Below are positions 1 through 36,216 of a stretch of DNA of 64,000 nucleotides, in pieces. The DNA comes from a candidate division WOR-3 bacterium (GTDB lineage: Bacteria > Hydrothermota > Tepidihabitantia > Tepidihabitantales > Tepidihabitantaceae), in the NCBI GenBank assembly GCA_024653355.1, contig JANLFQ010000001.1, positions 496,001-560,000 of the forward strand, read 5' to 3'. Position 1 is the stretch's first letter, and the number at the start of each line of letters is the position of its first letter. A model generated the notes under the pieces. It worked only from the letters and a program-made list of their open reading frames with translations. It was not told the origin of the DNA and ran no database searches. Made by a program: the position numbers and the translations under genes.

Positions 1-350
1 ATCAAAGAACCAAGAATCACACTCACACCTCTCCCGCCTTGAAAACCAAGCCATACGGGCCAGGTATGGCCAATAAAAGCTCCAATGCCAATCAGTAATG
101 GTAAAAACGACTCTGGTGCCAGAGCCTTACCTATAAACACCGGCACAAGCGCCTTGAGGATATCAAGTATCCCGACCAAGACTGCCGCTGGTTTAGAAAC
201 GAGCACGCCAACCATCGTTCCGGAAACGGTGCGGCTGCCATAATTACGCATATCAATTCCGCGCCAGGCTCGAACCAGAAGCCAGGAGAAAGGTATTGAA
301 CCAAAAAAGTAGCCAACCAAAAGCGCCAATGCGGAATAGACAACTATCAT
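1..350 (-). CDS. plsY: PlsY-family glycerol-3-phosphate acyltransferase, 3' end cut by window edge
   Basis: Translating the minus strand from the ATG at 350 gives a hydrophobic protein that stays open to base 1. It begins with a membrane segment and the GSIPFSWL motif of PlsY. A second region carries GHTWPVWLGFQGGRG, matching the family's GHxxPVxLxFxGGxG motif. PlsY moves an acyl group from acyl-phosphate to glycerol-3-phosphate at the inner membrane, the first step of phospholipid synthesis. The usual GSGNxGATN loop reads GSRTVSGTM here, so motif 2 is degenerate and the substrate could differ. The start overlaps the stop of the fatty-acid kinase fusion (ATGA), so the two are probably translated together. 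About 116 residues are visible. The family call is firm; activity is less certain because of motif 2. Confidence 0.8.
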   Translation of the reverse strand, partial: MIVVYSALALLVGYFFGSIPFSWLLVRAWRGIDMRNYGSRTVSGTMVGVLVSKPAAVLVGILDILKALVPVFIGKALAPESFLPLLIGIGAFIGHTWPVWLGFQGGRGVSVILGSL

Positions 351-2698
351 CGCTTGGCGGTTGAACCGTAACGAACAAGAAAACCCTGTAGACCCGGACC
401 GCTTATCATCTTAACATCAAACCGGAATTGTCCGATATTCAATTCCAATTCCTCACGCCGCTGACTGATTGCCTCTTCAATACTTTCTCGCAGTCGTCGT
501 GCGACATCAGCAGGTAAAATTTTTTCCAGACTGGTTGCCTCCGACATTGTTCTTCCGTAAATCCAATCAGAAGCAAAAATCACCGTGCTTTCGGAATCAA
601 GAACAAGCAGCGAACCGCCATCGGTCCGGACATAATTTTCAAACGCCCGCTGAATCAAACGCAACCTTGCCACCTCCTGTTGTAGAGTTTGATACCGGTG
701 ATGGGCACGGTACCACATTATGGGAAACAGTACCGCGTAGGCGACCCAGTTAGCAAAGAACCGCACGACATACCCTGGTACCTTTCTTACCCAATGGAAA
801 GCTCGAGCGAATCGAAAACGATAAATCTCTCGTTTCCGTTTCGCAAGCCTTGTTGGCGGTTTAGGTGGCGTAGCGTAACCGAATCGTGCGGCAATCCGCA
901 ACACCTCCTGCTCCAGACCTTCAGATACATGGATATGGAAATGGGTTGTCCCGTCCACCACATTAAAAGTTATCTTAGGGTTGGGCAAACGGTTATCAAG
1001 CATAACGAACGCTTTATTTAATTCCTCAGCGACCTCGCCCTGCACACAGCCCTCAACGCAGAAACCACGCAACTCAGGTGGTTGATGACGATAAATGAGC
1101 CGCTGGGCTAATTCACCATGGCGTCGAACCTCTTTTAACACCAGATGGTACCGTGTCTGGATTCGTTGTTCCCGAGATAAACCCAATGTCCGCAAAAGTG
1201 CCCATATGACCAGCGTGAATCCAAATCCTCCCGCATCAACCAGCCGTTCCTGTTTTAAAATTTCAACCTCCTGTACGCGGGGATTCAGCAGTTCTTCTGT
1301 TGCTGCCAGATAGGCATTGGTCAGGACATTGCGCAGCGTTGGTCTTTGCTCAAAAGCCTTTTGTGCCGCCTGGTCACAGGCTCGCATTACCGAAAGAATT
1401 GTCCCTTCTTTCGCTTCGCGACCAAAATAGGCGTAACACCGGTCTGTACCTGCCTTTAAAGCTTTAACCAGTACCTCAAGCGTTAAATTTTCAGTTGGGT
1501 TGTTTCTTTCAACATATTCACTGAATCCCAGAAAGTATGCACCAATGGCTCCACCGGAATAACCACCGCCCTTTCGGGCAATACGAACTGCGACCTGCTT
1601 CAACATCGGTGCGAATGGTATTGAAGCGTCAATGTTCGCTCCCGCTCCTTTAAATGGCGATAGTAAATTTGAACCGGTATCACCATCTCGGACCGGGAAA
1701 ACATTTATCGCATTTACCGTTTGTTGAAAGATTCTAAGTTCTTTCTCTACTTCATTGAGAAATCGTAAAAACACCGGGGTTGAAATCGACTCGTAACCTA
1801 GCCCGAGAACCCCGAACGCCACTAATGCTGTTCCGGTATGGACACCGATTACCGGGCTCGCCTGGTAAAACAACACTGGCTCCGACAGTATAAACTCCGA
1901 TTGGCTCTCAATGATTTTTCTTAATCGTTCGGCATCAGGCATAACCTCAGAACCGGTCCAGGAAACCTGGGCAATCATTGGCTCTTTATATCCCACCCGC
2001 TGCCGTATTGTGTCTAAAACGAACCGCTCCAATTGGCTTTTTCGTACCAATGCCATGGTCCGCGGTTTTTCGCCTTCAAGTATAAAAAATGGTAACAACC
2101 GGAACATCTTCAAAAACGGCTGAACCACGGTAGTAAGTAAGTATGGTATTGGTACCCGCCCGGTGCGCCGTAACCGCCTAACATCATACACGAAACCACA
2201 AACAAAACCTTTGCCCAGTTTATCCTCAACAAAATCCATAACCTCATCGATACTTTTACCTTTTGCGGCATATGCTGCCGCAACCCGTGCTAAAATACCC
2301 AGGGTAATAAATGCCTGTTCCCCTATTACAACAATCCGATTGGGATATTTTCTACTCAGTTCCTGTACCGCTTGTCGGGTGTTATCGTACACGCCCGAAA
2401 GCTGTCCGCCCACCACAAAACAGATAATATCGCTATCAGATTTCTGAATAATTGCTTCAAGAGTCTGTTTTATCTCCCAGGAGCTGCCGGCTTGCGTTCC
2501 CAAAAATAAACGGCGACCCTGCGGAGAACAAAGTAACCGATATAAAGCCTGGCAATCTCCCTGTCGCAGTTGATTCTCGACCTCTTGAGGTAAACCGGTC
2601 ACATGAATAATCGGCAAAACTTCAATACCAAATTTTGCCTGTTCTTCAGGGCTGAGATTTACGGTGTTGTCAACGGCAATTAGAACCGAACGGCTCAT
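347..2698 (-). CDS. Fused fatty-acid kinase: DegV/FakB + DhaL/FakA domains, membrane segment and PAS-like tail
   Basis: 783 residues. Residues 4-295 are a DegV/FakB fatty-acid-binding domain (SGVY near 101, HTGT at 287-290). Residues 315-510 are a DhaL kinase domain as in FakA, with NVFPVRDGDTGSN around 332-344 (Mg/ATP aspartates) and LVDAGGFGF near 486. Residues 540-610 look like the FakA middle domain, with Cys547 and HIH at 588-590 in the places of its zinc ligands. A hydrophobic stretch at about 645-663, a short coiled coil, and a PAS-like region at 693-780 follow. In Firmicutes FakA and FakB are separate proteins that phosphorylate free fatty acids, and the acyl-phosphate feeds PlsX/PlsY. 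Here both are one chain, overlapping plsY downstream and the FG-GAP gene upstream by 4 bases each. The membrane anchor could hand product to PlsY; that and the PAS role are inference. Confidence 0.82.
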   Translation of the reverse strand: MSRSVLIAVDNTVNLSPEEQAKFGIEVLPIIHVTGLPQEVENQLRQGDCQALYRLLCSPQGRRLFLGTQAGSSWEIKQTLEAIIQKSDSDIICFVVGGQLSGVYDNTRQAVQELSRKYPNRIVVIGEQAFITLGILARVAAAYAAKGKSIDEVMDFVEDKLGKGFVCGFVYDVRRLRRTGRVPIPYLLTTVVQPFLKMFRLLPFFILEGEKPRTMALVRKSQLERFVLDTIRQRVGYKEPMIAQVSWTGSEVMPDAERLRKIIESQSEFILSEPVLFYQASPVIGVHTGTALVAFGVLGLGYESISTPVFLRFLNEVEKELRIFQQTVNAINVFPVRDGDTGSNLLSPFKGAGANIDASIPFAPMLKQVAVRIARKGGGYSGGAIGAYFLGFSEYVERNNPTENLTLEVLVKALKAGTDRCYAYFGREAKEGTILSVMRACDQAAQKAFEQRPTLRNVLTNAYLAATEELLNPRVQEVEILKQERLVDAGGFGFTLVIWALLRTLGLSREQRIQTRYHLVLKEVRRHGELAQRLIYRHQPPELRGFCVEGCVQGEVAEELNKAFVMLDNRLPNPKITFNVVDGTTHFHIHVSEGLEQEVLRIAARFGYATPPKPPTRLAKRKREIYRFRFARAFHWVRKVPGYVVRFFANWVAYAVLFPIMWYRAHHRYQTLQQEVARLRLIQRAFENYVRTDGGSLLVLDSESTVIFASDWIYGRTMSEATSLEKILPADVARRLRESIEEAISQRREELELNIGQFRFDVKMISGPGLQGFLVRYGSTAKR

Positions 2699-4194
2699 TG
2701 TCTTACCAATAACTTCTGCCGCACGGTTCTGCCTCCTTCATGAGAAATCAAAAAATATACCCCGGGACGCACTTTGTTTGCCCTTCTGCCAGTTAGGTCA
2801 TAAATTGTTCCCGAGCCAAGGAGCATAACCATTCCTAACAACGGCTTTGTCTCTTTTATCGCCGATGACAGAGTATCACCCTCAATACAGTAAACATAGC
2901 CAGGCGATTCCCGATACTGATTACCGGCGATTACATCATCCAGCATATCACCATTAACATCAGCGATGCTCCGTACCGAATTTACCCATCCTCCAGTTGC
3001 GTAATTCCAGATAATCAGTCCTTCCCTGCCACTTAAACAGTAAATGTTGCCGTCACCGGAACCACCGACAACATCCGGATAACCATCGCCATTAACATCA
3101 CCAATCGGATAAACAGTCCAGACATCATCGCCCACTGAGGTTCGCCACAACTGAGTGCCACTCCTCCCATCAAGTACAATCACCGCAGGATCCCAAGAAC
3201 CGACAATCACCTCCGGAACTGTATCGCCGTTGATATCGCCCAGCAGTTCAACTCGCATCCCGTAACTACCAATATTTGTTGCCCAAATCAACTGTCCGGT
3301 ACTGCCTTCAAGACAGTAAACATAATTGCCCCAAGTTGAGGCAATTACATCATCGACCCCGTTGTGATTTACATCTGGTACCGAACGAACACAATAAACA
3401 TCACCGGCGGCAATATAAGACCAGAGAACCTGAGGTTGATTGCCACGGCTATTTCCACTGATACAATATACCCGGCGGTCACGGCTATTACCCCAAGCAC
3501 CAGCAACCACATCGGCATAGCCATCTCCATTTACATCCGGAATCGCGCATACCGTACCAATTGCGTCTTCGGCGTAAAAACGCCACAGGATTGTTCCATT
3601 GGCGCCAGAAAAGCAGAAAACGGTCTGGCAATAAGTACCGGTACCGGCTAAAACTTCGTAAATAGAATCGCCATCAACATCGGGCATCGGAGCAACACAA
3701 TAGACCCACCCTGAAGCGATTGAATCCTGATAGGTGTCATAAGACCAGATAGTTGACCCATCGCTGCCACTGATGGTAAAAACTGTCCTGCCACCCCATG
3801 CGGTGCCCAACAGCGCATCGCCTAAACCATCACCATTCAAGTCCGGAACTGCCGCAACGCACTGGTCGCCCCAACCACCACTGTTACTTATTCCACCTGT
3901 AGGCCAGATTGCCCATATTGTATCACCGGACATACCGGATAGACAGAAAAAATGGGCCGGTCCAGTTGTTCCGGCGTCAAAAGATTCTGCGAGAACATCA
4001 TTTATACCATCGCCATCAATATCCCAGAAAGGAGCAACACACTCTACATCATCGACGCCTTGAAATGTCCATAATAAATGCCCCGGTCCCCACAGAAGGG
4101 ACTGTGATGCCCGGATACTTTCCAGGGTTACAACATTTTTATCCGGTGTTGAGTTTAATAACGATATCAGTAACCATAAACACGCGATACCCAT
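2695..4194 (-). CDS. Secreted FG-GAP/VCBS-repeat beta-propeller protein with C-terminal sorting domain
   Basis: 499 residues. A hydrophobic N-terminus is followed by eight copies of a calcium-loop motif of the D(I/L/V)NGDG(x)xD(V/A) type (for example DINGDGIND, DVNGDGYAD, DVNGDGYPD), interleaved with blades carrying YCLSG-like and LIW-like strands. This is the pattern of FG-GAP/integrin-alpha-like and PQQ-like propellers, which usually bind calcium and act as surface or adhesion modules. The last 40 residues (IYDLTGRRA, PGVYF, KLLV) match the FlgD-Ig/type IX-like sorting tail found in other genes here. A good ribosome site (GAGG) precedes the ATG, and the stop overlaps the next start by 4 bases. 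The ligand is unknown. Confidence 0.8.
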   Translation of the reverse strand: MGIACLWLLISLLNSTPDKNVVTLESIRASQSLLWGPGHLLWTFQGVDDVECVAPFWDIDGDGINDVLAESFDAGTTGPAHFFCLSGMSGDTIWAIWPTGGISNSGGWGDQCVAAVPDLNGDGLGDALLGTAWGGRTVFTISGSDGSTIWSYDTYQDSIASGWVYCVAPMPDVDGDSIYEVLAGTGTYCQTVFCFSGANGTILWRFYAEDAIGTVCAIPDVNGDGYADVVAGAWGNSRDRRVYCISGNSRGNQPQVLWSYIAAGDVYCVRSVPDVNHNGVDDVIASTWGNYVYCLEGSTGQLIWATNIGSYGMRVELLGDINGDTVPEVIVGSWDPAVIVLDGRSGTQLWRTSVGDDVWTVYPIGDVNGDGYPDVVGGSGDGNIYCLSGREGLIIWNYATGGWVNSVRSIADVNGDMLDDVIAGNQYRESPGYVYCIEGDTLSSAIKETKPLLGMVMLLGSGTIYDLTGRRANKVRPGVYFLISHEGGRTVRQKLLVRQ

Positions 4195-4266: not shown

Positions 4267-5295
4267 CTAAAAATCCACTCCCAGTGTCAAACGGTGCGAC
4301 ATTCCTAATCTACCAAGATTCCGATATCCGTAATCCAGCCCCAGCGCAAAATTGGGATTTGGCTTAACTCGAAACCCTGCTCCGAATGAAATTCCGGTTT
4401 CCCAGCCGATATTCGCCGCGTAATTCACATCGGTGTTTAGTATATAGCCACCCCGCAGCGCAAACATACCGGTTCGGTATTCCAGTCCGATATTTACCTT
4501 TTCATTGACATCGTTGAAATGATTCAAATCAACCGCTGCAGTTAGCGTATTCGCATCATTGTTAAAAATGTCGTAGGCAAGCCCCAAGCGAAACAAAACC
4601 GGTAACGGAAAAGTTTCTGTAAGGTAGGTTGCCGGGATGGGTTCTCTGGTCCAGGGCCATTCCCAGTCCGGGTTATATGTAAAGTTGAGTTGGCTACCTG
4701 CGTAGAGTAAATCCGGACCAAAATTGGCAATTACCATCCCCATCCGTAAATTACGCCATCCGGTGTTGTAATGGACGCCAAAATCAAACGCCATTCCACT
4801 CGTTCCGACATCCCAGATTTTTTCCGAGATAAATTTCGCGGTGAGTCCAAAGCAAAGTTTGTCGGTAAACATTCGGGCATAGGAAATCCCTGCCGCCAAG
4901 TCTGCACCACTAAAAGTTCTACCTGTTCCTTGATACTCATCGATCGTTGTCTCTTCAAATTGACCCAAAGAGAGTGCGGTAACCGAAATTCCAAAATTTC
5001 CAAAATTAGACGGAATGACCGCAGCAATGAACTCGTGACTGATATCTTTAACCCAATCAATGTGGTTTAAAGTCAACTGACGGTTGGGCACCAGTGCAAG
5101 ACCGGCAGGATTCCAGTAGGTCGCCGATGCATCATTCGCAATCGCCACAAATGCTTCCCCCATTCCGGTTCCTCTGCCAACACCAATTTTCAAAAAGGGC
5201 AACCCCGCCATACCAACTTTGGTGAAAGCAGCAAAACCGGGTGAGACGACCACAAAAACTATAATGAATATTGACAATTTTTTCCAGTGTTCCAT
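4267..5295 (-). CDS. PorV/PorQ-family outer-membrane beta-barrel protein
   Basis: 342 residues with a signal peptide ending near FAAF. The mature start carries the PorV/PorQ hallmark: a glycine-rich GVGRGTGMGEAFVAIANDASATYWNPAGLA region at about residues 39-66. The rest is alternating strands rich in aromatic and glycine residues and ends in phenylalanine (LTLGVDF), as barrels do. PorV is the outer-membrane acceptor that takes cargo from the type IX translocon in Bacteroidetes, and relatives occur in many FCB phyla. A strong AAGGAGG lies seven bases before the ATG. The gene sits 10 bases after a secreted protein with a sorting tail, which supports a secretion-related role. Whether it works in a true type IX system cannot be shown here. 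Confidence 0.8.
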   Translation of the reverse strand: MEHWKKLSIFIIVFVVVSPGFAAFTKVGMAGLPFLKIGVGRGTGMGEAFVAIANDASATYWNPAGLALVPNRQLTLNHIDWVKDISHEFIAAVIPSNFGNFGISVTALSLGQFEETTIDEYQGTGRTFSGADLAAGISYARMFTDKLCFGLTAKFISEKIWDVGTSGMAFDFGVHYNTGWRNLRMGMVIANFGPDLLYAGSQLNFTYNPDWEWPWTREPIPATYLTETFPLPVLFRLGLAYDIFNNDANTLTAAVDLNHFNDVNEKVNIGLEYRTGMFALRGGYILNTDVNYAANIGWETGISFGAGFRVKPNPNFALGLDYGYRNLGRLGMSHRLTLGVDF

Positions 5296-5305
5296 ATACG
5301 CCTCC

Positions 5306-8281
5306 TTAGTAAATCAAAACAAACTTGCCGGTCTGCGCTCTGCCATCCTCGGCTTCCACATAAAAAATGTATACACCGGGGGCAGGTTTCTGGTGTGCTT
5401 CGTTAAGCAAATCCCAGTCTTCGTCACCCCCGAACCGTCCTGGAACACCGCCAATCTCCGGTCGGGTATCGTAATGGGTGAGAACCTTTACAAGGTCACC
5501 GGCAAGATTGTAGATATATATCTTGCACCGTGACGGCAGATTGATAAATTTCAACTTACGAAAGTCGCGGTGACGTTCCCATTCGTTCCGGATAAAATAA
5601 GGATTAGGTACGACCTTAACCTGCAACTTTTCATCCTGCTCACTTGTAAATGCGGGGGTAAACGAAATACGGAATCGAGCAGCATAAGGTGCTGGAGAAA
5701 GTGGTTTGGTATACACAACCCAAGTATCTCCCGGTTCAGGCAACTGTAAAACCGGACTGCCAGAACGAGGCCGGAACATCAACTGCGCTCCACAGATTGA
5801 CATATAAAGCGTCTGGCCAATCGCCAGTGTATCTGAAGCACTGTTTGCTGTTTGGAAACACCAGCCGTCCGCGGAATCAACATCGCGTCGGAAACGCATA
5901 AATCGGTAGGGCACTTCAAGGTTATTATCAATATCGTAAACCCGGGCGGTTCTACTGCTCCCTTTTTCTTCCCAGACTATACGGTAATGAGAACCACGGT
6001 ATGCCCAGTGTGCACGATTGTTTGTTCCGTCATCAAGAAAAGCAATCGAATCTACCGGATATGAACCAACAACGGTAACCCGGTCAAAAAATTGGTAGGG
6101 TATCGAATCCATCTTTAACTTGACGGTAATCTGAGCCACCGGCATCCAAGCGCGAACGGTGTCGATCAAATGGTCATTTTTCTGAACTATGTTCGTGATT
6201 ATTGAATCAAAAGCGGTCATCACCATAACGATGGTGTCAGTTCGCGAGTCAATCTTCACGGGAAAATCTGTAACTGGAACGATCGTATCTGTTGAACCCT
6301 TTAGTAGTAAATACCGATAACGGGGCTGGCGCAGAGTCGCGTCGTAAACTGTTGGCAAGAATACCACCTGATAAGTATCAGGTTTTATCGCATAAGGCAC
6401 AACTCCCAGCGGCTCAATTTTGATTTTCAACCGACTATTGCCGGCAATCTGTATCCAATCACTTTGTGGCGGTACATAACCCGCCGGTGCGGTGCGTGGA
6501 ACCGCTTTAATGCCGATTATTCCTGACTCGAGCGACAGCGTATCAGGAGGCACCGGAGGATTTTGATTGGGGTCGCCGCCAAGGTAGTTGATATCATACG
6601 CGGTAACGGCGTAGTAGTATGGAAATCCGAGCCGAAGGTTGCTGGAATCAACAAAGCAGTAAGACAAACCAACATCCCGCGCTTTGGTTCGCAGAGATTC
6701 CACCACCGTTGTATCTTCAAATTGAATACCATCTTTTTTGTCAAACTGCGCCAGCAGTTGCCAATCTCCTGGTTGACCGGTACGGCTACGGTAAACTTTG
6801 TATCCTTGAAAATCCTGTTCCACATAATAGGGGTTCTGCAAAGTGGGCGCTAAAGGGAAAAATCTATCGCGTGCATCTTCTGGAATGTCATCCCAGACCA
6901 GCGTTACTCGTCCATCGCCCGGGATTGCCGTAACATTAGGAGCCGGGGGGGGTTCCGGCATTATCCAGTTATTGTCATAAGCCTGCTGCGCTGCTCGAGA
7001 AGCAACCGCTAAATAATAGGGCCAGGTTTGTGGTGGACCGGTTCGGTCTGCCTTAGCAGCGATTACCGCCACCGTAACTGTGGTCAACTCATTTGGTGCC
7101 AGAGTAACCGGACCCGTAGCCTGTAAAAATCGTTTGTCATCCGGTGCGGCATCGTTTGAATCGTAAGGGACATAGGGATAAGTTGGGTCATTCCAGTCAT
7201 AGCCGGCAAGGGCAAGATACTGCTCAAAGTCGTTCTTCGGGTCACCAGCAAGAATAAAAATCTGAAACGAACTCATACCAACCTGTCTGCCTTCTGCCGG
7301 TTCGTCTATTAAACCGTTGTTGTTATTGTCGATACCGTCAAAACCGTCGATTGAACCATCAGGGTTTTTCACATACGGGCTTTGAAGAAAATCAAAACCA
7401 ACAAATCCGCTGGGCGATGCATCATCCGAATACACATAACCTAAATTGTCCGCGTAAGCTGAATCTGTACCGCTTGCATTTTTGATATATTTATGCAAAC
7501 ATAACCCGCACCAGTCATCGGTTGCATTACCAACATCGGCATCACAAACAATCCCAAGGTAAAGGTCCTTAAGAGTATCGGTACTGCGATTGCGCACATC
7601 CAGTTTAAAAAATACAATATCCCGATTCCATGGCAAATTCCAGGAATAAATTGTCTGATAGACCTCGAGCCCAATCGGGCGCGGTGTTCTACCCGCAGTA
7701 TGATTAGCGGGGTCGGCATCGTTGAAAACTGCCCAAGCATCTCCGGTCGAGACTGCCCGTCGGGGTATATAGTGAAAATAGGTCGGAATAGTTTCGTTCC
7801 CGAGAGGAATTTTTAGTGGGGTAAGAACAGAGTCCTGCAATGAGGAAGGAAAATCAGCCGGATTCGGTGGAAAATCCGGTGTAATGTAAACCCTTTCAAA
7901 GGTACGCGAACTGTAGCCACCGCCTGCATTGTCATAGCAGCCCGGCGTCATTTCGGATTTACCGGAATTGGGATTGTACCCGTTAGAAACGAATGTATCC
8001 GGTCCGCCTGTCGTCCTCTTAATACAACCAATCCAGATGCCTGCCCCATAAATATACATATCACCGGAACCAGCAGGCCATTCTCCTCCGGAACGTCCAA
8101 TACCGTAACCAAATGTGCCGTAATTAGTGACCGCAAGATTCCACTGATTCTTTTGATACCACTGGAAATCGTATATCCGACCAGGCTTGCCGGAAGTAAC
8201 TGCCGTACGGGCAAAAGATAAACCAACAACAGTTAGAATTAATCCCACAACAGTTCTCAATTTTTTCTCGCCTCTTGTCAT
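5306..8281 (-). CDS. Large secreted protein with FnIII-like region and C-terminal sorting domain
   Basis: 991 residues with a signal peptide (hydrophobic stretch ending near LSFA). The first 450 residues have no family I recognise but contain a calcium-type loop (DGIDNNNNGLIDE, about 315-328). A fibronectin type III-like region follows PPPAPNVTAIPGDGRVTLVW at about 450-560. The final 90 residues (LKFINLPSRCKIYIYNLAGDLVK, then PAPGVYIFYVEA) form a FlgD-Ig-like sorting tail. It lies between a TonB-dependent receptor and a PorV-like barrel with gaps of 10-13 bases, so it is probably in one operon and exported to the surface. The organisation resembles large surface proteins common in WOR-3-like genomes; function unknown. 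Confidence 0.7.
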   Translation of the reverse strand: MTRGEKKLRTVVGLILTVVGLSFARTAVTSGKPGRIYDFQWYQKNQWNLAVTNYGTFGYGIGRSGGEWPAGSGDMYIYGAGIWIGCIKRTTGGPDTFVSNGYNPNSGKSEMTPGCYDNAGGGYSSRTFERVYITPDFPPNPADFPSSLQDSVLTPLKIPLGNETIPTYFHYIPRRAVSTGDAWAVFNDADPANHTAGRTPRPIGLEVYQTIYSWNLPWNRDIVFFKLDVRNRSTDTLKDLYLGIVCDADVGNATDDWCGLCLHKYIKNASGTDSAYADNLGYVYSDDASPSGFVGFDFLQSPYVKNPDGSIDGFDGIDNNNNGLIDEPAEGRQVGMSSFQIFILAGDPKNDFEQYLALAGYDWNDPTYPYVPYDSNDAAPDDKRFLQATGPVTLAPNELTTVTVAVIAAKADRTGPPQTWPYYLAVASRAAQQAYDNNWIMPEPPPAPNVTAIPGDGRVTLVWDDIPEDARDRFFPLAPTLQNPYYVEQDFQGYKVYRSRTGQPGDWQLLAQFDKKDGIQFEDTTVVESLRTKARDVGLSYCFVDSSNLRLGFPYYYAVTAYDINYLGGDPNQNPPVPPDTLSLESGIIGIKAVPRTAPAGYVPPQSDWIQIAGNSRLKIKIEPLGVVPYAIKPDTYQVVFLPTVYDATLRQPRYRYLLLKGSTDTIVPVTDFPVKIDSRTDTIVMVMTAFDSIITNIVQKNDHLIDTVRAWMPVAQITVKLKMDSIPYQFFDRVTVVGSYPVDSIAFLDDGTNNRAHWAYRGSHYRIVWEEKGSSRTARVYDIDNNLEVPYRFMRFRRDVDSADGWCFQTANSASDTLAIGQTLYMSICGAQLMFRPRSGSPVLQLPEPGDTWVVYTKPLSPAPYAARFRISFTPAFTSEQDEKLQVKVVPNPYFIRNEWERHRDFRKLKFINLPSRCKIYIYNLAGDLVKVLTHYDTRPEIGGVPGRFGGDEDWDLLNEAHQKPAPGVYIFYVEAEDGRAQTGKFVLIY

Positions 8282-8293
8282 ATTGCCTCCTTA

Positions 8294-11077
8294 CTAAAAT
8301 TCAAACACCAATCCCACCTTAACCTGTCTTGGTGGTCCGTAGTTAACTGGATTATTGACAAAGTCAAGGTAAGCAAGTTTATATGCGATATACTCCTCAA
8401 CATCGGTGATATAGCCGTCATGATTTACATCGCGTACCGGATTGTACTTCCCGGTGTTCAGTAGTGTTACATCAGGGTCAAGAACCCAGTTCGCTGGTGA
8501 ATAAGTTGCAATATAACCATCATCATCGGGTAATCCGGTAGCGCCATAAACCCACTGAACCACTTCGTTATCAAACAGGTTTGTAACAACACAGGTTAAT
8601 CCCAGTCTGAACTTACCAACTTTTATATACTTGGTCGCGTTCAAGTCCGCAGTGAATCTCGCCGGCATCCGGGCTGAATTACGCTCCGCGGTCGGTCTGC
8701 CGGCATTTAATCTTCGAACCTCACGTGGGGTGTAGGGCAACCCTGAACCGTAATTGAAAAGCACTGAAGCGTTGAACTGACGCAGCAAAATTGATGCAAA
8801 GTCATCGGGGAACTCGCAACCCACAGAAATTTTGGCGTTGTGCCGTTCATCAAACTCTAGAGCGTAATCGCGGCGCGGGGGTTCCATCTCCTCACCTGTA
8901 ACCGGGTCTACTCCATAACGATATCGCTCGTAGTACCATTCGTAGGCATAAGATGCGGTGCCCCGTGCAATGGATAAACCGTACGACAGCCGCGCGTTCC
9001 AGTAATTTGACTCCAGTTTCTGTAAACCAAGTTCAAAACCGCGAATATTGCCGTACTCCTCATTGACTATGGGATAATAACCCATTGGCACCGCAGGTTG
9101 ATAGCGCACACCCATCAAGTCAAAAACATCTTTGTAATATGCGGTTGCGTCGAACACCAAAACATCAGTTAACTGCTGTTCCAGACCCAACTCGTAAGCA
9201 ATCGTCTGTTGTGCTTTGAGGTCAACATTACCAATTATCTGATTGCCGCGGGCATAAGCGGCTGAAGAGATGTTATCGTAGAGAAAATGGTAAGCCGGTG
9301 TCTGGAAGAAGTGTCCATAACTAAATCGGAACTTCGTCTTCGTGGTTATAGGAAACGAAATACCAACCCGAGGAGAAAATTTATACTTTTGCAACGCCCG
9401 CACCATCGTCGTATCTTCAATATCCGCCGGGTTTGCTCGTTTGTAAGCCTTCGGGTCAAGATAATCAAGGCGCACTCCTAATCGCACAACTAAATCCTCA
9501 AAGTCCATTCGGTCTTGAACAAAAAAAGCCGCACCGATCGGATTGAAGTCATAAAGGTCAACAAACGGGTTCGGGTCCCAAGGTAATGAGTTGTAACGGC
9601 GATGTAGATAATTCTGTCGCAACTCCCCACCCGCTTTGAATTCGTGGACCTTTCCGACATTGTGCGTAATGTCTCCCTTCAGAGTCCACACATCTGACCA
9701 GTGCAACTGAAAATACCGATAATCCCCAAAACCGTAGAACAGATTGTAAACGCCCCACGGGTTGTTGGTGTTAGATTTGGACTGTTCAACATAGCCGGGC
9801 ATCGGGTGAAAAATGACATTCGGGTCTTTACGCACCGTATCTTCCGCCTTGAAGATGTAATCTTCCCAGAAACGCAAGGAGTAATTACGTTCATTGGCTT
9901 CACGTTCTAAATCCCGAATACCAATCATCCGTTCATTACTGAAATAACTCATACGCAGGGTGTATATCGTGGATTTTGTCAGCATATGGTTGGCAGAGAT
10001 GTTAAACTTCTTAACTCTTTCCCGCCGGGACAGAAAGTGGTCGAGGTTGTATTTAAAACCAAGATGGTTTTCGCTCTCCCGGTCGTAAGGATAGAGTCCG
10101 TACTGCTCCCGCGCCACATAACCATCGGCCGTCATTTTCAACCCTTGACCTAACGGCAAAGAGTAGGTTATTTTTCCAGTGGCTTTATAATCCTGGCGTT
10201 GCTGATGGGGAAGTTTATAGCGCATAGGATTATAATCATCGGCAAAATAAAGTTCACCAGAAAGAAAATAGCGTAGCGGTTTTACACCAAAAAGTGGCCC
10301 ACCGATTGACGCCTCATATCGGTTATCGCCAAAATTTAGCGGCGCAGGGAAAATTTCGTCTGTCGTCATTCGAAACCGGCCCTGGACATTTTCCCTTCCC
10401 TCTTTAGTAATAACCTGAATAATCCCGGACATCGCTTCCCCGTACTCGGCATCAAAACCGCCCGAAATTACCACCACTTCGGCGGTTGCCTCGGGATTAA
10501 CCCGTGCTGCTTGATAACCAAACAACGGGTCTGAAGTTGCAACACCATCCACATAGTACATTACCTCATCAGGTCTACCTCCTCGGAGATGCTGACCGTA
10601 GGCGGGACTGGTAACAACGCCTGCCTGTAACCGAACAATATCAGCAAGGGTTGCAACGGGCATTTTAGTAAACTCATCGGTTGTCATATACCGGCTGGTG
10701 GTTGGGTCGGTACGGACAATTGCTTCCCTTTTACCTTTAACTTCTACTACACCCATTTCCACCGTTCCCGGAGAAAGCCGAAAATCTTCTTTTATAGTCT
10801 GGTCAACCATTACCAGAACATTGGAACGACGCTGGGTCTGGTATCCAACATAAGAAACTATCAAGGTTTGATTACCGGCAGGTACATTACTGATAAGGTA
10901 TTCCCCATTAATATCGGTTGCTGCACCCAGCATTGTCCCTTCCACAAGCACATTGGCGCCAATCAATGGCTCACCGGTTTTCGCATCAACAACTCGCCCC
11001 CGAATTCTTCCGGTTTCACCCGCAAGTGCTATACCCAGCAATAATATAAATAACAACCCCAATACCTTTTTTGTCAT
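8294..11077 (-). CDS. TonB-dependent outer-membrane receptor with carboxypeptidase-regulatory-like domain
   Basis: 927 residues. A signal peptide is followed by a CarboxypepD_reg-like beta-sandwich (GRIRGRVVDAKTGEPLIGANV, about 23-105), then a plug domain (TLADIVRLQAGV, GGRPDEVMYYVDGV, with ISGGFDAEYGEAMSGIIQVITK near 205-228), then a long barrel ending in VGLVFEF. An unusual insert near the C-terminus (DVNHDGYITDVEEYIAYK) looks like an EF-hand/dockerin loop inside an extracellular loop. Such receptors take up large ligands with energy from TonB-ExbB-ExbD, encoded 3 kb away. The SusC-like N-terminal domain suggests a polymer or glycan substrate, but there is no SusD partner, so the ligand is open. 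Confidence 0.85.
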   Translation of the reverse strand: MTKKVLGLLFILLLGIALAGETGRIRGRVVDAKTGEPLIGANVLVEGTMLGAATDINGEYLISNVPAGNQTLIVSYVGYQTQRRSNVLVMVDQTIKEDFRLSPGTVEMGVVEVKGKREAIVRTDPTTSRYMTTDEFTKMPVATLADIVRLQAGVVTSPAYGQHLRGGRPDEVMYYVDGVATSDPLFGYQAARVNPEATAEVVVISGGFDAEYGEAMSGIIQVITKEGRENVQGRFRMTTDEIFPAPLNFGDNRYEASIGGPLFGVKPLRYFLSGELYFADDYNPMRYKLPHQQRQDYKATGKITYSLPLGQGLKMTADGYVAREQYGLYPYDRESENHLGFKYNLDHFLSRRERVKKFNISANHMLTKSTIYTLRMSYFSNERMIGIRDLEREANERNYSLRFWEDYIFKAEDTVRKDPNVIFHPMPGYVEQSKSNTNNPWGVYNLFYGFGDYRYFQLHWSDVWTLKGDITHNVGKVHEFKAGGELRQNYLHRRYNSLPWDPNPFVDLYDFNPIGAAFFVQDRMDFEDLVVRLGVRLDYLDPKAYKRANPADIEDTTMVRALQKYKFSPRVGISFPITTKTKFRFSYGHFFQTPAYHFLYDNISSAAYARGNQIIGNVDLKAQQTIAYELGLEQQLTDVLVFDATAYYKDVFDLMGVRYQPAVPMGYYPIVNEEYGNIRGFELGLQKLESNYWNARLSYGLSIARGTASYAYEWYYERYRYGVDPVTGEEMEPPRRDYALEFDERHNAKISVGCEFPDDFASILLRQFNASVLFNYGSGLPYTPREVRRLNAGRPTAERNSARMPARFTADLNATKYIKVGKFRLGLTCVVTNLFDNEVVQWVYGATGLPDDDGYIATYSPANWVLDPDVTLLNTGKYNPVRDVNHDGYITDVEEYIAYKLAYLDFVNNPVNYGPPRQVKVGLVFEF

Positions 11078-30749: not shown

Positions 30750-33326
30750 TTACTGAACTACTATCGCCTTGGCAGAAACCGACTTGCCATCAACCCTCAA
30801 GCGGTAGAAATAGGTACCGTTCGCCACTCGCTTACCTGATGCATCACGCCGGTCCCAGGTAAACTGGTACTCTCCAGGAGAAAGAAGTTCATCGACAAGG
30901 GTTTTCACCAATGAGCCGGTAACATCATAGACGCCGAGGTTAACGCGTCCTGCCTTAGGAACGCCGAATCTCAACCAACCGTATGCTTTTACCGGATTCG
31001 TCATTTTCAACGAAAGCGAACCGCTTTCGATTTTGTACTCCTCCATACCGGTCATCGGAATCAAACCCTCTTCCAGATTAACCAGATATGTTGGTGTCAC
31101 GCAATCCGAACCATAGGCAACCCAGATTGAACCGCCGACAACATTGGGCATATGCCAGCCACGACGAGTTATCATCGGTGTCTCGGTTGACCAGGTGTTT
31201 GATGGTATATGATACTTGTAAACCAGGTTGTCCGCTGCTGCGGCACCGTCTGCTGAGCCACCCAGCACATAAATTACCGTATCCTCATAGGCAACCATCC
31301 GGTGATATATCCTTGGACCGGGCATATTAGCCTTCTGGGTCCAGGTGTTATTAACTGGGTCAAATTCCCAGCAGTCCTGATACTCGTTCTGTGACGCATC
31401 ACTGCCACCGGTCACATACACCTTACCACCGGCGCCGACCGCTGCTGCCCAACCTCTGCCCATTGGAAGTGTCGCTTTCGTTGTCCAACTGTTGGAACTC
31501 GGGTCATACTCGTAAGTAGTTCCGGTGCTACTTTCGCTGCCAATGACATACAGTTTATCGTTAACCACCGCACCGCAGCATGCCCAGGCGCCAGCCGGCA
31601 TATTAGCCTTTGCCGTTACCGTCTTGGTATCAACATCAAACTCCTCGCAGGAGTTAAGCGTTGTGCTCGCAGAATCTCTGCCACCGGCAACATATATCTT
31701 GTTGCCAATTCTGCCGCCGGCACCAGCACGGCGCGGTCTCGACAGTGTCGGCAAACCGGTCGTAATCCAGGTACCATTGGCGATGTCGTATGCGGTAATC
31801 GTTCGAATTGATGGTGCGTTTGACTGCCTTCCGCCCAGGAAGTAGATGGTATCGCGCACAACACCAGTACCCGGGCTCCAGTATCGACCAGGTTCAGGTG
31901 CAGCGGTTCGCACATACCAGGTAAGATTGGTTGGTCTAACCTGCGTTGTGCCTCGTAATGTATCGTTGCTCCGGTCTTCGTCGCCAGCTAAATCGGTGAA
32001 CATCGTTACATTGTAGGTGCCACCAATTGCTTGCCACTGGGGTGAAAAGTCAACATCAGCGGTTGCGCCCGGTGCTAATGGACCAGGATAAGTAACTGTC
32101 TGGTTGTAAACGCGGACCGCGCCGGAATCAATCCAGCAGTAAACCGGTATGTTAGACTGCGGCGCGGTACCAAAGTTCTTAATCTTCGCCCGCGGGGTCA
32201 CTGCTCCCGGTGGCACAGATGTACCCGGTGCGAGGATTTGTAACACGCCAACATCGTTAGCATTTCCGGCAGCGAGGACCTCATACTGACAGGTATCGGT
32301 GGGAGTAAAACCACCAATTGAACCGCCATAAACCACCGCCTTGCCATCCGCATTTCCAACACCGGTGCCCCGGTAAATTGGTAATAGGACATCAGGCGTA
32401 ACTGTCCAGGTCCGGGTTCCGAAGTCAAAATACTGGCAGGTGTCCATCAGCGCCATCGCCGAACTCACACCCGAATGGACAAACATCGTCTGACCAACAA
32501 CACCGCTCGCTGCTGCCCAGGTCGCAATCGGCAACTGCGGGAAAATGGTGTTGTTAACCGTCCAGGTGTTTGAAACCGGGTCGTAGAACTCAGAGTGGTT
32601 CAAAACGGTAGTGTTCTGATAACCACCGGTAACCCAGATGGTATCGTGATAGACACAACCCATCGCAAAGACCCGTCCCTGATTCATATCCGCAACCTGG
32701 GACCAGCCACTGCCCGGCGTATAGCAATAAACATTGCGAGTCGGATTGGTCGCTCCCGGCTGGTTGCAACCGCTGATGTAGTACAGTTTACCACCACAGG
32801 CTAATACAAGCGGCTGCCAGTTGTAGGTTGTACCGGTAAAAGGACCAGGACCACTCGTCCAGGTGTTGGTGCTGATACAGTACTTAAACATCGTGTCCAC
32901 AGTTGTGCCCAGTGAATAGGAGTACCCCGAACAGTAATAGAGTGTATCGCCAATGATTGCCGCACCACCATTGGAGATATCAAGCGGACAGGGTGCCATC
33001 GTTTGCCAGGTTGTTGAACCAATTTGATGCCGATATAGTGCATAGGTGGTGCCGTAACCGGCAAGGGCATAAACATAGTTGCCATCAGTCGCACAGGCGT
33101 TGTCCATCATCCTGCCCGGCATCTCGCTGTGCAACATCCAGGCATCGGTGGGAAGCGACGGATTTACTGTTCCCCAGACATAGTCGTTTGAGCCATAGGT
33201 GCCGTAGTACAGTTTTACCTTCTGGGGTGCACTCTGGCTCAGGTCGCTCGTGGTCACATCAGAACCGGCAGCAAACACCAGTCCCAATAGACTTACTAGA
33301 GCGAGGAGCGCTACATTTTTCCTCAT
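30750..33326 (-). CDS. Secreted kelch-repeat protein with CARDB-like middle domain and sorting tail (copy A)
   Basis: 858 residues with signal peptide MRKNVALLALVSLLGLVFAAG. Residues 1-352 hold a kelch propeller (repeats such as YVYALAGYGTTYALY, IWVTGGYQN, VVYGGSIGG). Residues 355-465 are a CARDB-like beta domain (VTPRAKIKNFGTAPQSNIPV, YNVTMFTDLAGDED). A second kelch propeller follows (IYFLGGRQ, IYVAGGRD, VYVTGGSD, IYVLGGSAD) and the last 80 residues are a FlgD-Ig sorting tail (LGVYDVTGSLVKTLVDE, NGTYFYRLRVDGKS). The first 352 codons and the whole 5' leader are identical to copy B, while the second propellers differ. It has its own promoter and terminator. Role probably surface binding; ligand unknown. 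Confidence 0.8.
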   Translation of the reverse strand: MRKNVALLALVSLLGLVFAAGSDVTTSDLSQSAPQKVKLYYGTYGSNDYVWGTVNPSLPTDAWMLHSEMPGRMMDNACATDGNYVYALAGYGTTYALYRHQIGSTTWQTMAPCPLDISNGGAAIIGDTLYYCSGYSYSLGTTVDTMFKYCISTNTWTSGPGPFTGTTYNWQPLVLACGGKLYYISGCNQPGATNPTRNVYCYTPGSGWSQVADMNQGRVFAMGCVYHDTIWVTGGYQNTTVLNHSEFYDPVSNTWTVNNTIFPQLPIATWAAASGVVGQTMFVHSGVSSAMALMDTCQYFDFGTRTWTVTPDVLLPIYRGTGVGNADGKAVVYGGSIGGFTPTDTCQYEVLAAGNANDVGVLQILAPGTSVPPGAVTPRAKIKNFGTAPQSNIPVYCWIDSGAVRVYNQTVTYPGPLAPGATADVDFSPQWQAIGGTYNVTMFTDLAGDEDRSNDTLRGTTQVRPTNLTWYVRTAAPEPGRYWSPGTGVVRDTIYFLGGRQSNAPSIRTITAYDIANGTWITTGLPTLSRPRRAGAGGRIGNKIYVAGGRDSASTTLNSCEEFDVDTKTVTAKANMPAGAWACCGAVVNDKLYVIGSESSTGTTYEYDPSSNSWTTKATLPMGRGWAAAVGAGGKVYVTGGSDASQNEYQDCWEFDPVNNTWTQKANMPGPRIYHRMVAYEDTVIYVLGGSADGAAAADNLVYKYHIPSNTWSTETPMITRRGWHMPNVVGGSIWVAYGSDCVTPTYLVNLEEGLIPMTGMEEYKIESGSLSLKMTNPVKAYGWLRFGVPKAGRVNLGVYDVTGSLVKTLVDELLSPGEYQFTWDRRDASGKRVANGTYFYRLRVDGKSVSAKAIVVQ

Positions 33327-33603: not shown

Positions 33604-36216
33604 TTACTTAACCACTATCGCCTTGGCAGAAACCGACTTGCCATCAATCGTCAACCGGTAGAAGTAGGTACCGTTCGCCACTCGCTTGCCTGATGCATCA
33701 CGCCGGTCCCAGGTAACCGTCTTATTACCAGGTTCTGAAACTCCATTAACCAGAGTCCGGATTAGTGAACCCGAAGCATCGTAAACACTAAGGTTTACCC
33801 GCCCAGTAGAAGGAACATTGTAACTGATTCGGCAGAAATCCCGTACCAGTGTCGGCGCGATACCATCAATTCCCTCCCAGTTGATGCTCGGTTTGCCTTC
33901 TTCAATTCCAGTAAGGGCAATGATACCTTTCTGAACATTAGGAAGGATTGCGGTGCCGTAACCACCAGCAACCCAGATGTAGTTCCCAGAAATCGACCCA
34001 CCATGGGAACGGGTAGCGGTCAGAAGCGGACGGTCCGCGGTCCATGTATGATTATTCACATCATAGCGCCAGCAGGCAGTAACAATCGAACCGGTTCGAT
34101 AACCGCCAAATACATAGATATATGTACCGCCAGAGTAAGAATAGGCAACCGCACGACCCCAGCCTAATTTGTCGGGCATCGAATCAGCCGCTACCGTCCA
34201 GGTGTTACCGAGAACCGAATACTTCCACACTGTGCCACGAGTAGAGTTGTAGTCGTTGGCTGACATTCCACCAATCACATAAATGGTGTCTCCAACCCGG
34301 GCAACCATCGGATTCCGCCGGATATCAGGCATATTTGCCATTGCGGTCCAGGAGTTGGTTGATGGGTCATACCGATAGGTATTGTTAATCGGTCCCGATG
34401 TCCCGCTCGGTGAACCGCCAAAGCAGTACACCCAGCCCGAATCCGCATACTCACCAAGCGAGTAGTAGAGCAGATCGGACTGAGGCATTGCTGCGGCTTG
34501 CGTCCAGGTGTTGGCACCGAGGTCAAGTTTGGTAAGGTAGTTGTAAAATCCACTACCAGAACTACCACCGCCAACCCAGATGATATCACCGATTCTGACC
34601 GCATCGTGGTTGTGAACACCAACACCACCACCTGCTGGATGCTGCAACCCTTGAGACCAGGTATTTGTAACTGTATCGTAAACCTGGTCATACGGATGGG
34701 ATGTATGCGGGAAGCAGTTGCCACAGATAACATGGAGATTGCCCTGAGCATCGTTGACACAGGCAACCCGGCTCACCCGGTCGGGCTGAATCGTGTCGCT
34801 CTGGGACCAGTCAATCGTGTACTGCATAACCTGAGCGGTTCCGCGCAGCGTGTCGTTCGCCCGCTCTTCATCGCCCGACAGATTAGTAAACATCGTCACA
34901 TTGTAAGTCCCACCTACCGCCCGCCACTGAGGGGAAAATTCCACATCCGCAATTGCACCCGGCGGCAATGGACCGGTATAGGTCACACTCTGTTCGTAAA
35001 CCCGCGTTGCACCGGAATCAATCCAGCAGTAAACCGGAATGTTGTACTGTCCAACTGTACCGAAGTTTTTAATCTTCGCCTTAGGAGTGATGTTGCCCGG
35101 CGTAATGACACTTGCGGGACTGACAATCTGAATTACGCCAACATCGTTGGCATTTCCGGTAGCGAGGACCTCATACTGACAGGTATCGGTGGGAGTAAAA
35201 CCACCAATTGAACCGCCATAAACCACCGCCTTGCCATCCGCATTTCCAACACCGGTGCCCCGGTAAATTGGTAATAGGACATCAGGCGTAACTGTCCAGG
35301 TCCGGGTTCCGAAGTCAAAATACTGGCAGGTGTCCATCAGCGCCATCGCCGAACTCACACCCGAATGGACAAACATCGTCTGACCAACAACACCGCTCGC
35401 TGCTGCCCAGGTCGCAATCGGCAACTGCGGGAAAATGGTGTTGTTAACCGTCCAGGTGTTTGAAACCGGGTCGTAGAACTCAGAGTGGTTCAAAACGGTA
35501 GTGTTCTGATAACCACCGGTAACCCAGATGGTATCGTGATAGACACAACCCATCGCAAAGACCCGTCCCTGATTCATATCCGCAACCTGGGACCAGCCAC
35601 TGCCCGGCGTATAGCAATAAACATTGCGAGTCGGATTGGTCGCTCCCGGCTGGTTGCAACCGCTGATGTAGTACAGTTTACCACCACAGGCTAATACAAG
35701 CGGCTGCCAGTTGTAGGTTGTACCGGTAAAAGGACCAGGACCACTCGTCCAGGTGTTGGTGCTGATACAGTACTTAAACATCGTGTCCACAGTTGTGCCC
35801 AGTGAATAGGAGTACCCCGAACAGTAATAGAGTGTATCGCCAATGATTGCCGCACCACCATTGGAGATATCAAGCGGACAGGGTGCCATCGTTTGCCAGG
35901 TTGTTGAACCAATTTGATGCCGATATAGTGCATAGGTGGTGCCGTAACCGGCAAGGGCATAAACATAGTTGCCATCAGTCGCACAGGCGTTGTCCATCAT
36001 CCTGCCCGGCATCTCGCTGTGCAACATCCAGGCATCGGTGGGAAGCGACGGATTTACTGTTCCCCAGACATAGTCGTTTGAGCCATAGGTGCCGTAGTAC
36101 AGTTTTACCTTCTGGGGTGCACTCTGGCTCAGGTCGCTCGTGGTCACATCAGAACCGGCAGCAAACACCAGTCCCAATAGACTTACTAGAGCGAGGAGCG
36201 CTACATTTTTCCTCAT
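33604..36216 (-). CDS. Secreted kelch-repeat protein with CARDB-like middle domain and sorting tail (copy B)
   Basis: 870 residues. Residues 1-352 are identical to copy A. The CARDB-like domain is close but diverged (ITPKAKIKNFGTVGQYNIPV, FTNLSGDEERANDTLRG). The second propeller is clearly different (HVICGNCFPHTSHPYDQVYD, IWVGGGSSGSGF, VYCFGGSPSG, IYVIGGMSAND, IYVFGGYRTGS, IWVAGGYG). The tail again ends WDRRDASGKRVANGTYFYRL and KAIVVK, so the extreme C-terminus is conserved while the domain before it varies. Both genes have GGAGG before the same ATG. Tandem duplication with later conversion of the 5' half is the simplest account; a fixed base plus a variable recognition face is one functional reading. 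Confidence 0.8.
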   Translation of the reverse strand: MRKNVALLALVSLLGLVFAAGSDVTTSDLSQSAPQKVKLYYGTYGSNDYVWGTVNPSLPTDAWMLHSEMPGRMMDNACATDGNYVYALAGYGTTYALYRHQIGSTTWQTMAPCPLDISNGGAAIIGDTLYYCSGYSYSLGTTVDTMFKYCISTNTWTSGPGPFTGTTYNWQPLVLACGGKLYYISGCNQPGATNPTRNVYCYTPGSGWSQVADMNQGRVFAMGCVYHDTIWVTGGYQNTTVLNHSEFYDPVSNTWTVNNTIFPQLPIATWAAASGVVGQTMFVHSGVSSAMALMDTCQYFDFGTRTWTVTPDVLLPIYRGTGVGNADGKAVVYGGSIGGFTPTDTCQYEVLATGNANDVGVIQIVSPASVITPGNITPKAKIKNFGTVGQYNIPVYCWIDSGATRVYEQSVTYTGPLPPGAIADVEFSPQWRAVGGTYNVTMFTNLSGDEERANDTLRGTAQVMQYTIDWSQSDTIQPDRVSRVACVNDAQGNLHVICGNCFPHTSHPYDQVYDTVTNTWSQGLQHPAGGGVGVHNHDAVRIGDIIWVGGGSSGSGFYNYLTKLDLGANTWTQAAAMPQSDLLYYSLGEYADSGWVYCFGGSPSGTSGPINNTYRYDPSTNSWTAMANMPDIRRNPMVARVGDTIYVIGGMSANDYNSTRGTVWKYSVLGNTWTVAADSMPDKLGWGRAVAYSYSGGTYIYVFGGYRTGSIVTACWRYDVNNHTWTADRPLLTATRSHGGSISGNYIWVAGGYGTAILPNVQKGIIALTGIEEGKPSINWEGIDGIAPTLVRDFCRISYNVPSTGRVNLSVYDASGSLIRTLVNGVSEPGNKTVTWDRRDASGKRVANGTYFYRLTIDGKSVSAKAIVVK

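Follow-up and report, generated by a model that had tools for sequence, protein, structure and literature searches.

A predicted single-chain FakB-FakA fatty acid kinase overlapping a divergent plsY-like gene in a candidate division WOR-3 bacterium

The DNA analysed in this study, hereafter the window, is a stretch of 64,000 nucleotides from a candidate division WOR-3 bacterium (GenBank assembly GCA_024653355.1, contig JANLFQ010000001.1, positions 496,001 to 560,000 of the forward strand). At its left edge lies an open reading frame (ORF), here named fakBA, in which sequences related to both halves of fatty acid kinase, FakB and FakA, are joined (Table 1). These two halves are usually separate proteins. 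The range 1-2698 given in a first-pass annotation of this DNA comprises the fakBA ORF (347-2698) and, at 3-350, a plsY-family gene cut by the window edge, and the 4-base overlap reported there between the two genes was found as ATGA at 347-350. An FG-GAP repeat protein gene conserved in five genomes is the upstream neighbour of fakBA. The upstream region (window 4267-11077) also encodes a PorV/UPF0164-family barrel with a weak FadL-family match, which is not adjacent in genome G014, a 991-aa protein without a Pfam match and a TonB-dependent receptor, and a C25 peptidase gene lies in divergent orientation beyond plsY.

Table 1. Coordinates of the genes, domains and overlaps at the fakBA locus (window numbering)
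Feature	Position	Strand	Basis
fakBA (fused fatty acid kinase gene)	347..2698	-	ORF with ATG start, 783 aa; Pfam DegV and Dak2
FakB/DegV domain, residues 5-297	1808..2686	-	Pfam; FakB structures at TMt 0.7-0.8; ligand residues T68, S101, T179, R181, H287
FakA_N/DhaL kinase domain (the part covered by Pfam spans residues 335-501)	1196..1696	-	Pfam; structural match to 7rzk; residues
FakA middle (dimerisation, zinc) domain, residues 511-612, C547 and H586/H588/H590	863..1168	-	TIGR03599 alignment; invariant Cys/His
Possible membrane anchor: long helix (617-688) that contains a basic stretch and, at 644-662, a hydrophobic segment	635..850	-	AlphaFold2; hydropathy; conservation
PAS-like tail domain, residues 696-780	359..613	-	AlphaFold2; Foldseek; Pfam PAS at E 0.039 in one homolog only
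ATGA shared by the stop of fakBA and the start of the plsY-like gene	347..350	-	ORF coordinates, 4 nt
plsY-like gene (class 3), cut by window edge	1..350	-	Pfam G3P_acyltransf; 217 aa full length at L022:11701-12351
FG-GAP repeat protein gene	2695..4194	-	Overlaps fakBA start by 4 nt (2695-2698)

A search for the same fusion across WOR-3 genomes, as the first-pass annotation had proposed, recovered the FakB-first architecture from six of 147 genomes, all of them in the family of the window's genome and with identities of 51-82%. Because the same fused architecture is open in six genomes, chance is excluded, and a sequencing error or frameshift as the origin of the fusion was ruled out on the same ground. 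In a DhaL tree the six fusions formed a single clade (100/100) with a very long branch. Of the 18 genomes from this family, none that has the fusion encodes another DegV protein, and in the window's genome the fused protein was both the sole DegV and the sole Dak2 protein, so that the chain has no outside partner from these two families.

Pfam assigned a DegV domain (63 bits) and a Dak2 domain (62 bits) to the window protein, against a cut-off of 27 in each case, and both folds were found by Foldseek, which bears out the proposal that the catalytic parts of FakB and FakA lie in one chain. The NCBIfam model TIGR03599 (YloV/FakA) aligned to residues 316-607, comprising the kinase and middle domains without the FakA C-terminal domain, and the scores of the window protein were below the NCBIfam cut-offs for YloV (101.6 of 396.1 bits), FakA (55.6 of 975) and DegV (72.9 of 99.7). 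In Pfam searches, the C-terminal FakB-binding domain of FakA (PF13684) had no match in the fused protein, a helix and a PAS-like fold being present there instead, and Dak1 did not match the N-terminal domain, which is DegV. An AlphaFold2 model of the fused protein, computed from an alignment of 48 sequences with truncated DegV rows (full-length ones were misplaced over the last 100 residues), had a pLDDT of 88.5 and a pTM of 0.78. The DegV and kinase folds were both confidently modelled, and their closest solved folds were FakB and FakA_N, respectively. In Foldseek searches against the PDB, the N-terminal part resembled DegV/FakB fatty-acid-binding structures (2dt8, 5uto and others) with a TMt of mostly 0.7-0.8 at an identity of only 14-20%, and the kinase domain matched FakA_N 7rzk with a TMt of 0.89 and an rmsd of 1.8 Å. 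The middle domain is followed in the model by a single long helix (617-688) and then by a b-b-a-b-b-b domain (696-780).

The hydrophobic segment noticed in the first pass is real and occupies residues 644-662 of this helix, but its hydropathy is borderline, with a 19-residue Kyte-Doolittle value of 1.48 in the window protein (1.48-1.77 across the homologs) against the usual 1.6; basic residues flank it on both sides. A membrane anchor is plausible, and such an anchor may sit in-plane instead of crossing the membrane. When modelled alone, the tail reached a pLDDT of 83.7. PAS domains made up most of its top PDB matches in Foldseek, at E values of 4e-3 or weaker and a TM of about 0.6, alongside some roadblock/longin folds. 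The confident fold and these matches agree with the PAS-like end proposed earlier, but no PAS match was obtained with Pfam in the window protein, and one of six homologs matched at E 0.039. The domain, whose PAS identity is backed by the modelled fold and minimally by sequence, is here called PAS-like.

In FakB1, the residues T62, S95, S171 and H270 hold the fatty acid carboxylate and R173 is required for phosphorylation (PMC8892158). The positions equivalent to T62, S95, S171, R173 and H270 are T68, S101, T/S179, R181 and H287, respectively, and these residues were present in all six fused proteins. Nucleotide binding by FakA_N involves N32, D38, D40 (Mg), T41, N82 and D185, of which Asn82 contacts the beta-phosphate (PMC9136124). 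Five of these six positions are kept in the window protein: N332, D338, D340 and T341 (FakA N32, D38, D40 and T41) in every fused protein, and D488 (FakA D185) in five of the six, with His in G011. The exception is N82, which is Tyr (Y380, in GGGYSG) throughout the six, nearly all other homologs having GNSG. The ligand and kinase residues on which the first-pass proposal depended are kept in full on the FakB side and for the most part on the FakA side, and the DGDTG motif that it had named was located at residues 338-342. The middle-domain residues C240, H282 and H284 of FakA bind zinc and are needed for activity (PMC9136124, PMC11617999). In the fused proteins, C547 and an HFHIH run (H586/H588/H590; HFHFH in G011) are invariant in six of six, which upholds a conserved Cys/His set, but the match to the FakA His pair is ambiguous and the FakA middle-domain model PF21645 gave no score on the window protein in the Pfam search.

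Compared with the two-component FakA/FakB systems (S. aureus; S. suis complex 7w7h), the window protein has the same FakB ligand residues, the FakA kinase fold with most of its Mg/ATP residues and a probable Cys/His middle domain, but differs in being one chain with FakB first, in the absence of the C-terminal domain by which FakA docks FakB, in the Asn82 to Tyr change and in the extra helix and PAS-like tail. The earlier contrast with separate FakA and FakB is correct in that the catalytic parts are fused, but it is too simple, as single chains of the opposite order, Dak2-middle-DegV, are widespread. A total of 57 such ORFs (about 600 aa) were found in Bacillota, Mycoplasmatota, Zixibacteria, Gemmatimonadota, Spirochaetota, WOR-3 and others, four of which were confirmed with Pfam, and they rule out the fusion as a unique feature. 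These proteins (Listeria, Paenibacillus, Acholeplasmataceae, Zixibacteria, other WOR-3) likewise carry the kinase, the middle domain and a full DegV domain in one chain and, like the window protein, are without the added FakA C-terminal domain, whereas their order is reversed, their GNSG is kept and, in the searched set, they have no helix and PAS-like tail comparable to those of the window protein. No FakB-first order was found outside WOR-3 among the best 80 of 165 matches in one contig scan, and neither fusion order was found described in the literature searched. The work of Kinch in 2005 on the EDD domain reportedly touches on combinations of DegV and DhaL domains. Judged from the sequences compared, the novelty here lies in the permuted order of the domains, the loss of the docking domain and the presence of the tail, the single-chain fusion itself being already widespread. 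The single-chain dihydroxyacetone kinase of Citrobacter (1un8, 1un9) also has an EDD-type substrate domain followed by a DhaL kinase (581-588 aligned columns), but the N-terminal domain of the window protein is DegV and the overall superposition is poor (TM about 0.2-0.3).

Another short form was observed in family f8 (L009-L014, L030, L031), where a two-domain FakA of about 311 aa without the C-terminal domain adjoins fakB and is linked to a PlsY paralog with S35 changed to Asp. In this FakA, D38 is Cys or Ser, NSG is changed to NAG and the middle-domain Cys is missing, and it is possibly a changed or degenerate kinase. A kinship of its kinase domain with that of the fusions appeared in the tree (99/91) and was not relied on, both being very long branches.

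The gene overlapping fakBA, called plsY in the first pass, does belong to the PlsY family (Pfam G3P_acyltransf, 94 bits for the portion that the window includes), but it is a paralog that has diverged and whose acceptor site is changed, and not the standard PlsY of the genome. Three PlsY-family genes were found in the window's genome, namely a canonical copy (164 bits), a second paralog (115 bits) and the fakBA-linked gene (108 bits). Against the PlsY equivalog TIGR00023 (cut-off 137.2 bits) the fakBA-linked copy scored 95.1 and the canonical copy 156.4, and the best NCBIfam match of the former was NF010993, a PlsY-like model named only 'membrane protein' (109.7 of 249 bits). The PlsY of A. 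aeolicus (5xj5; PMC5700162), whose acceptor pocket is described as highly invariable, served as reference for the pocket, which the canonical copy keeps. The fakBA-linked protein shares the Pfam family and the acyl-phosphate-site residues of this reference, with H92, T41 (Ser in G001) and the GG-x-GV of loop 102-106 kept, but differs in the glycerol-3-phosphate pocket, where R45 is changed to V/F, K104 to R and H177 to R and S142 is lost; S35 is mostly kept and the position of N180 is uncertain. In the A. aeolicus enzyme, mutation of R45 or of H177 removes some 90% of the activity or more, and 25% remains in K104R (PMC5700162). The neighbour as housekeeping PlsY is ruled out by the canonical copy elsewhere, the altered pocket and the score below the NCBI cut-off. 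Conserved motifs of its own (GSRTVS, GGRGVS and KR-x-EAN) were recognised in the fakBA-linked protein, and its identity between genomes (54-81%) is close to that of the canonical copy (61-83%), from which it is judged to be under constraint.

The fusion and the plsY-like gene are adjacent in five of the six fusion genomes, G011 being the exception, and have a near-identical distribution, in line with the co-occurrence on which the earlier proposal had been made to depend. A profile of the fakBA-linked PlsY gave 392-399 bits in five fusion genomes, the next best match scoring 109, and detected a contig-edge fragment in G002, where the fusion would fall off the contig. Beside the G011 fusion no plsY-like gene was found in six frames; nearby frames we take, by eye, to be pyrE- and pyrF-like. 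Elsewhere, a plsY-family gene comes after a Dak2-DegV fusion in one genome each of Neomarinimicrobiota and Spirochaetaceae, and Fak and plsY-family genes also occur together in Heimdallarchaeota, in the WOR-3 genomes G063, G067, G068 and G128 and in family f8. The pocket of Fak-linked PlsY is largely canonical outside WOR-3, with R45 and H177 kept, and in every examined WOR-3 case R45 was altered together with one or more other pocket positions, in a sample that is small and uncontrolled for kinship. The gene associations support a functional Fak-to-PlsY link, and the WOR-3 cases suggest that changed acceptors may recur in this group.

On balance, we favour the reading that fakBA encodes a self-sufficient fatty acid kinase, its activity predicted from sequence and models, which would feed acyl-phosphate to a specialised PlsY-like acyltransferase with a changed acceptor. 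The N-terminal FakB domain would take a free fatty acid from the membrane and hold it for the kinase and middle domains of FakA, tethered in the same chain, which would phosphorylate its carboxylate with ATP to yield acyl-phosphate. The C-terminal helix probably anchors the enzyme at the inner membrane, and the PAS-like tail may serve in dimerisation or regulation. The acyl-phosphate would then be consumed by the PlsY-like membrane acyltransferase, which is translationally coupled to the kinase and whose altered pocket suggests that its acceptor is not sn-glycerol 3-phosphate. The covalent tether may substitute for the absent C-terminal domain of FakA, which in S. aureus docks FakB. FakA without this domain retains activity, its KM for FakB being raised ten-fold (PMC9136124), and the lack of the domain here fits the idea that a covalent tether to FakB makes a docking domain dispensable. 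More tentatively, the two genes may form a dedicated acyl-phosphate pathway bypassing glycerol-3-phosphate, in which a membrane-tethered single-chain kinase supplies a new PlsY-related enzyme with a different acceptor and which perhaps evolved repeatedly in WOR-3.

Channelling of the product to PlsY for ordinary lysophosphatidic acid, as first proposed, is not the safest reading, as the neighbour is a diverged PlsY copy in which the acceptor site is changed. It appears unlikely that the fused kinase works with an ordinary glycerol-3-phosphate acyltransferase whose pocket has re-evolved, the two forming a dedicated route from scavenged or recycled fatty acids to lysophosphatidic acid beside PlsX and the housekeeping PlsY. 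The mostly kept S35, the residual activity of K104R in A. aeolicus, the largely canonical Fak-linked PlsYs of other phyla and the presence in the window's genome of PlsX, two PlsC-family proteins and a ketoacyl synthase, by which an ordinary pathway exists, are all compatible with it, but R45 and H177, so costly to change in A. aeolicus, are replaced, S142 is lost, and the score is under the PlsY equivalog cut-off with that of the canonical copy above it.

Altered or lost kinase activity is possible, given the Tyr that each of the six fused proteins has in place of Asn82 and the His in place of D185 in G011, and these changes, the PAS-like tail and the very long branch in the kinase-domain tree could point to a protein that is mainly a fatty-acid sensor or carrier, its FakB domain loading a fatty acid, with the tail signalling or the chain regulating the PlsY-like protein. 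We regard this as improbable, however, since the Mg ligands, DGDTG, EGTIL and the middle-domain Cys/His are invariant among fused homologs of 51-82% identity, which one would not expect of a dead kinase. A further reading, in which the substrate of the kinase is not one of the common long-chain fatty acids and the specificity of the DegV pocket changed along with the PlsY acceptor site, would agree with the low identity of the DegV domain to solved DegV/FakB structures and with the divergent, lineage-restricted character of both fakBA and the plsY-like gene; it is judged quite improbable, as the residues that bind the carboxylate are those standard in FakB and nothing positive speaks for another ligand.

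If active, the fused protein would be a self-sufficient fatty acid kinase of a domain order not found in the literature searched, and a natural test of whether the FakA C-terminal domain is a docking device only. The coupled PlsY paralog raises the sharper question of further acceptors of acyl-phosphate, and a conserved kinase-linked PlsY with a rebuilt pocket would be a possible new step of lipid synthesis, directly testable with the two purified proteins.

Several further observations were made in the course of the analysis. The second PlsY paralog (L183:6443-6991, L184:6051-6614) has S35 changed to Asp, T41 to Val and R45 to Lys, and is flanked in both genomes by a 237-aa protein without a Pfam match and by what we take, by eye, to be a possible glycosyltransferase. 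PlsY-like N-terminal regions were also found in ORFs of about 400 aa on L151 and L153 (G008 and G012), with Thr at S35 and Gln/His at K104, which by sequence represent another divergent PlsY-like form. On the Heimdallarchaeota/Asgard contigs L056, L061, L062, L090 and L091, a FakA-like gene is followed by a plsY-family gene, with a separate DegV gene between them in four of the five, and a fatty acid kinase route in these archaea is possible. Within the window, two tandem genes at 30753-33326 and 33607-36216 encode proteins of 858 and 870 aa with identical starts, apparently a recent duplication.
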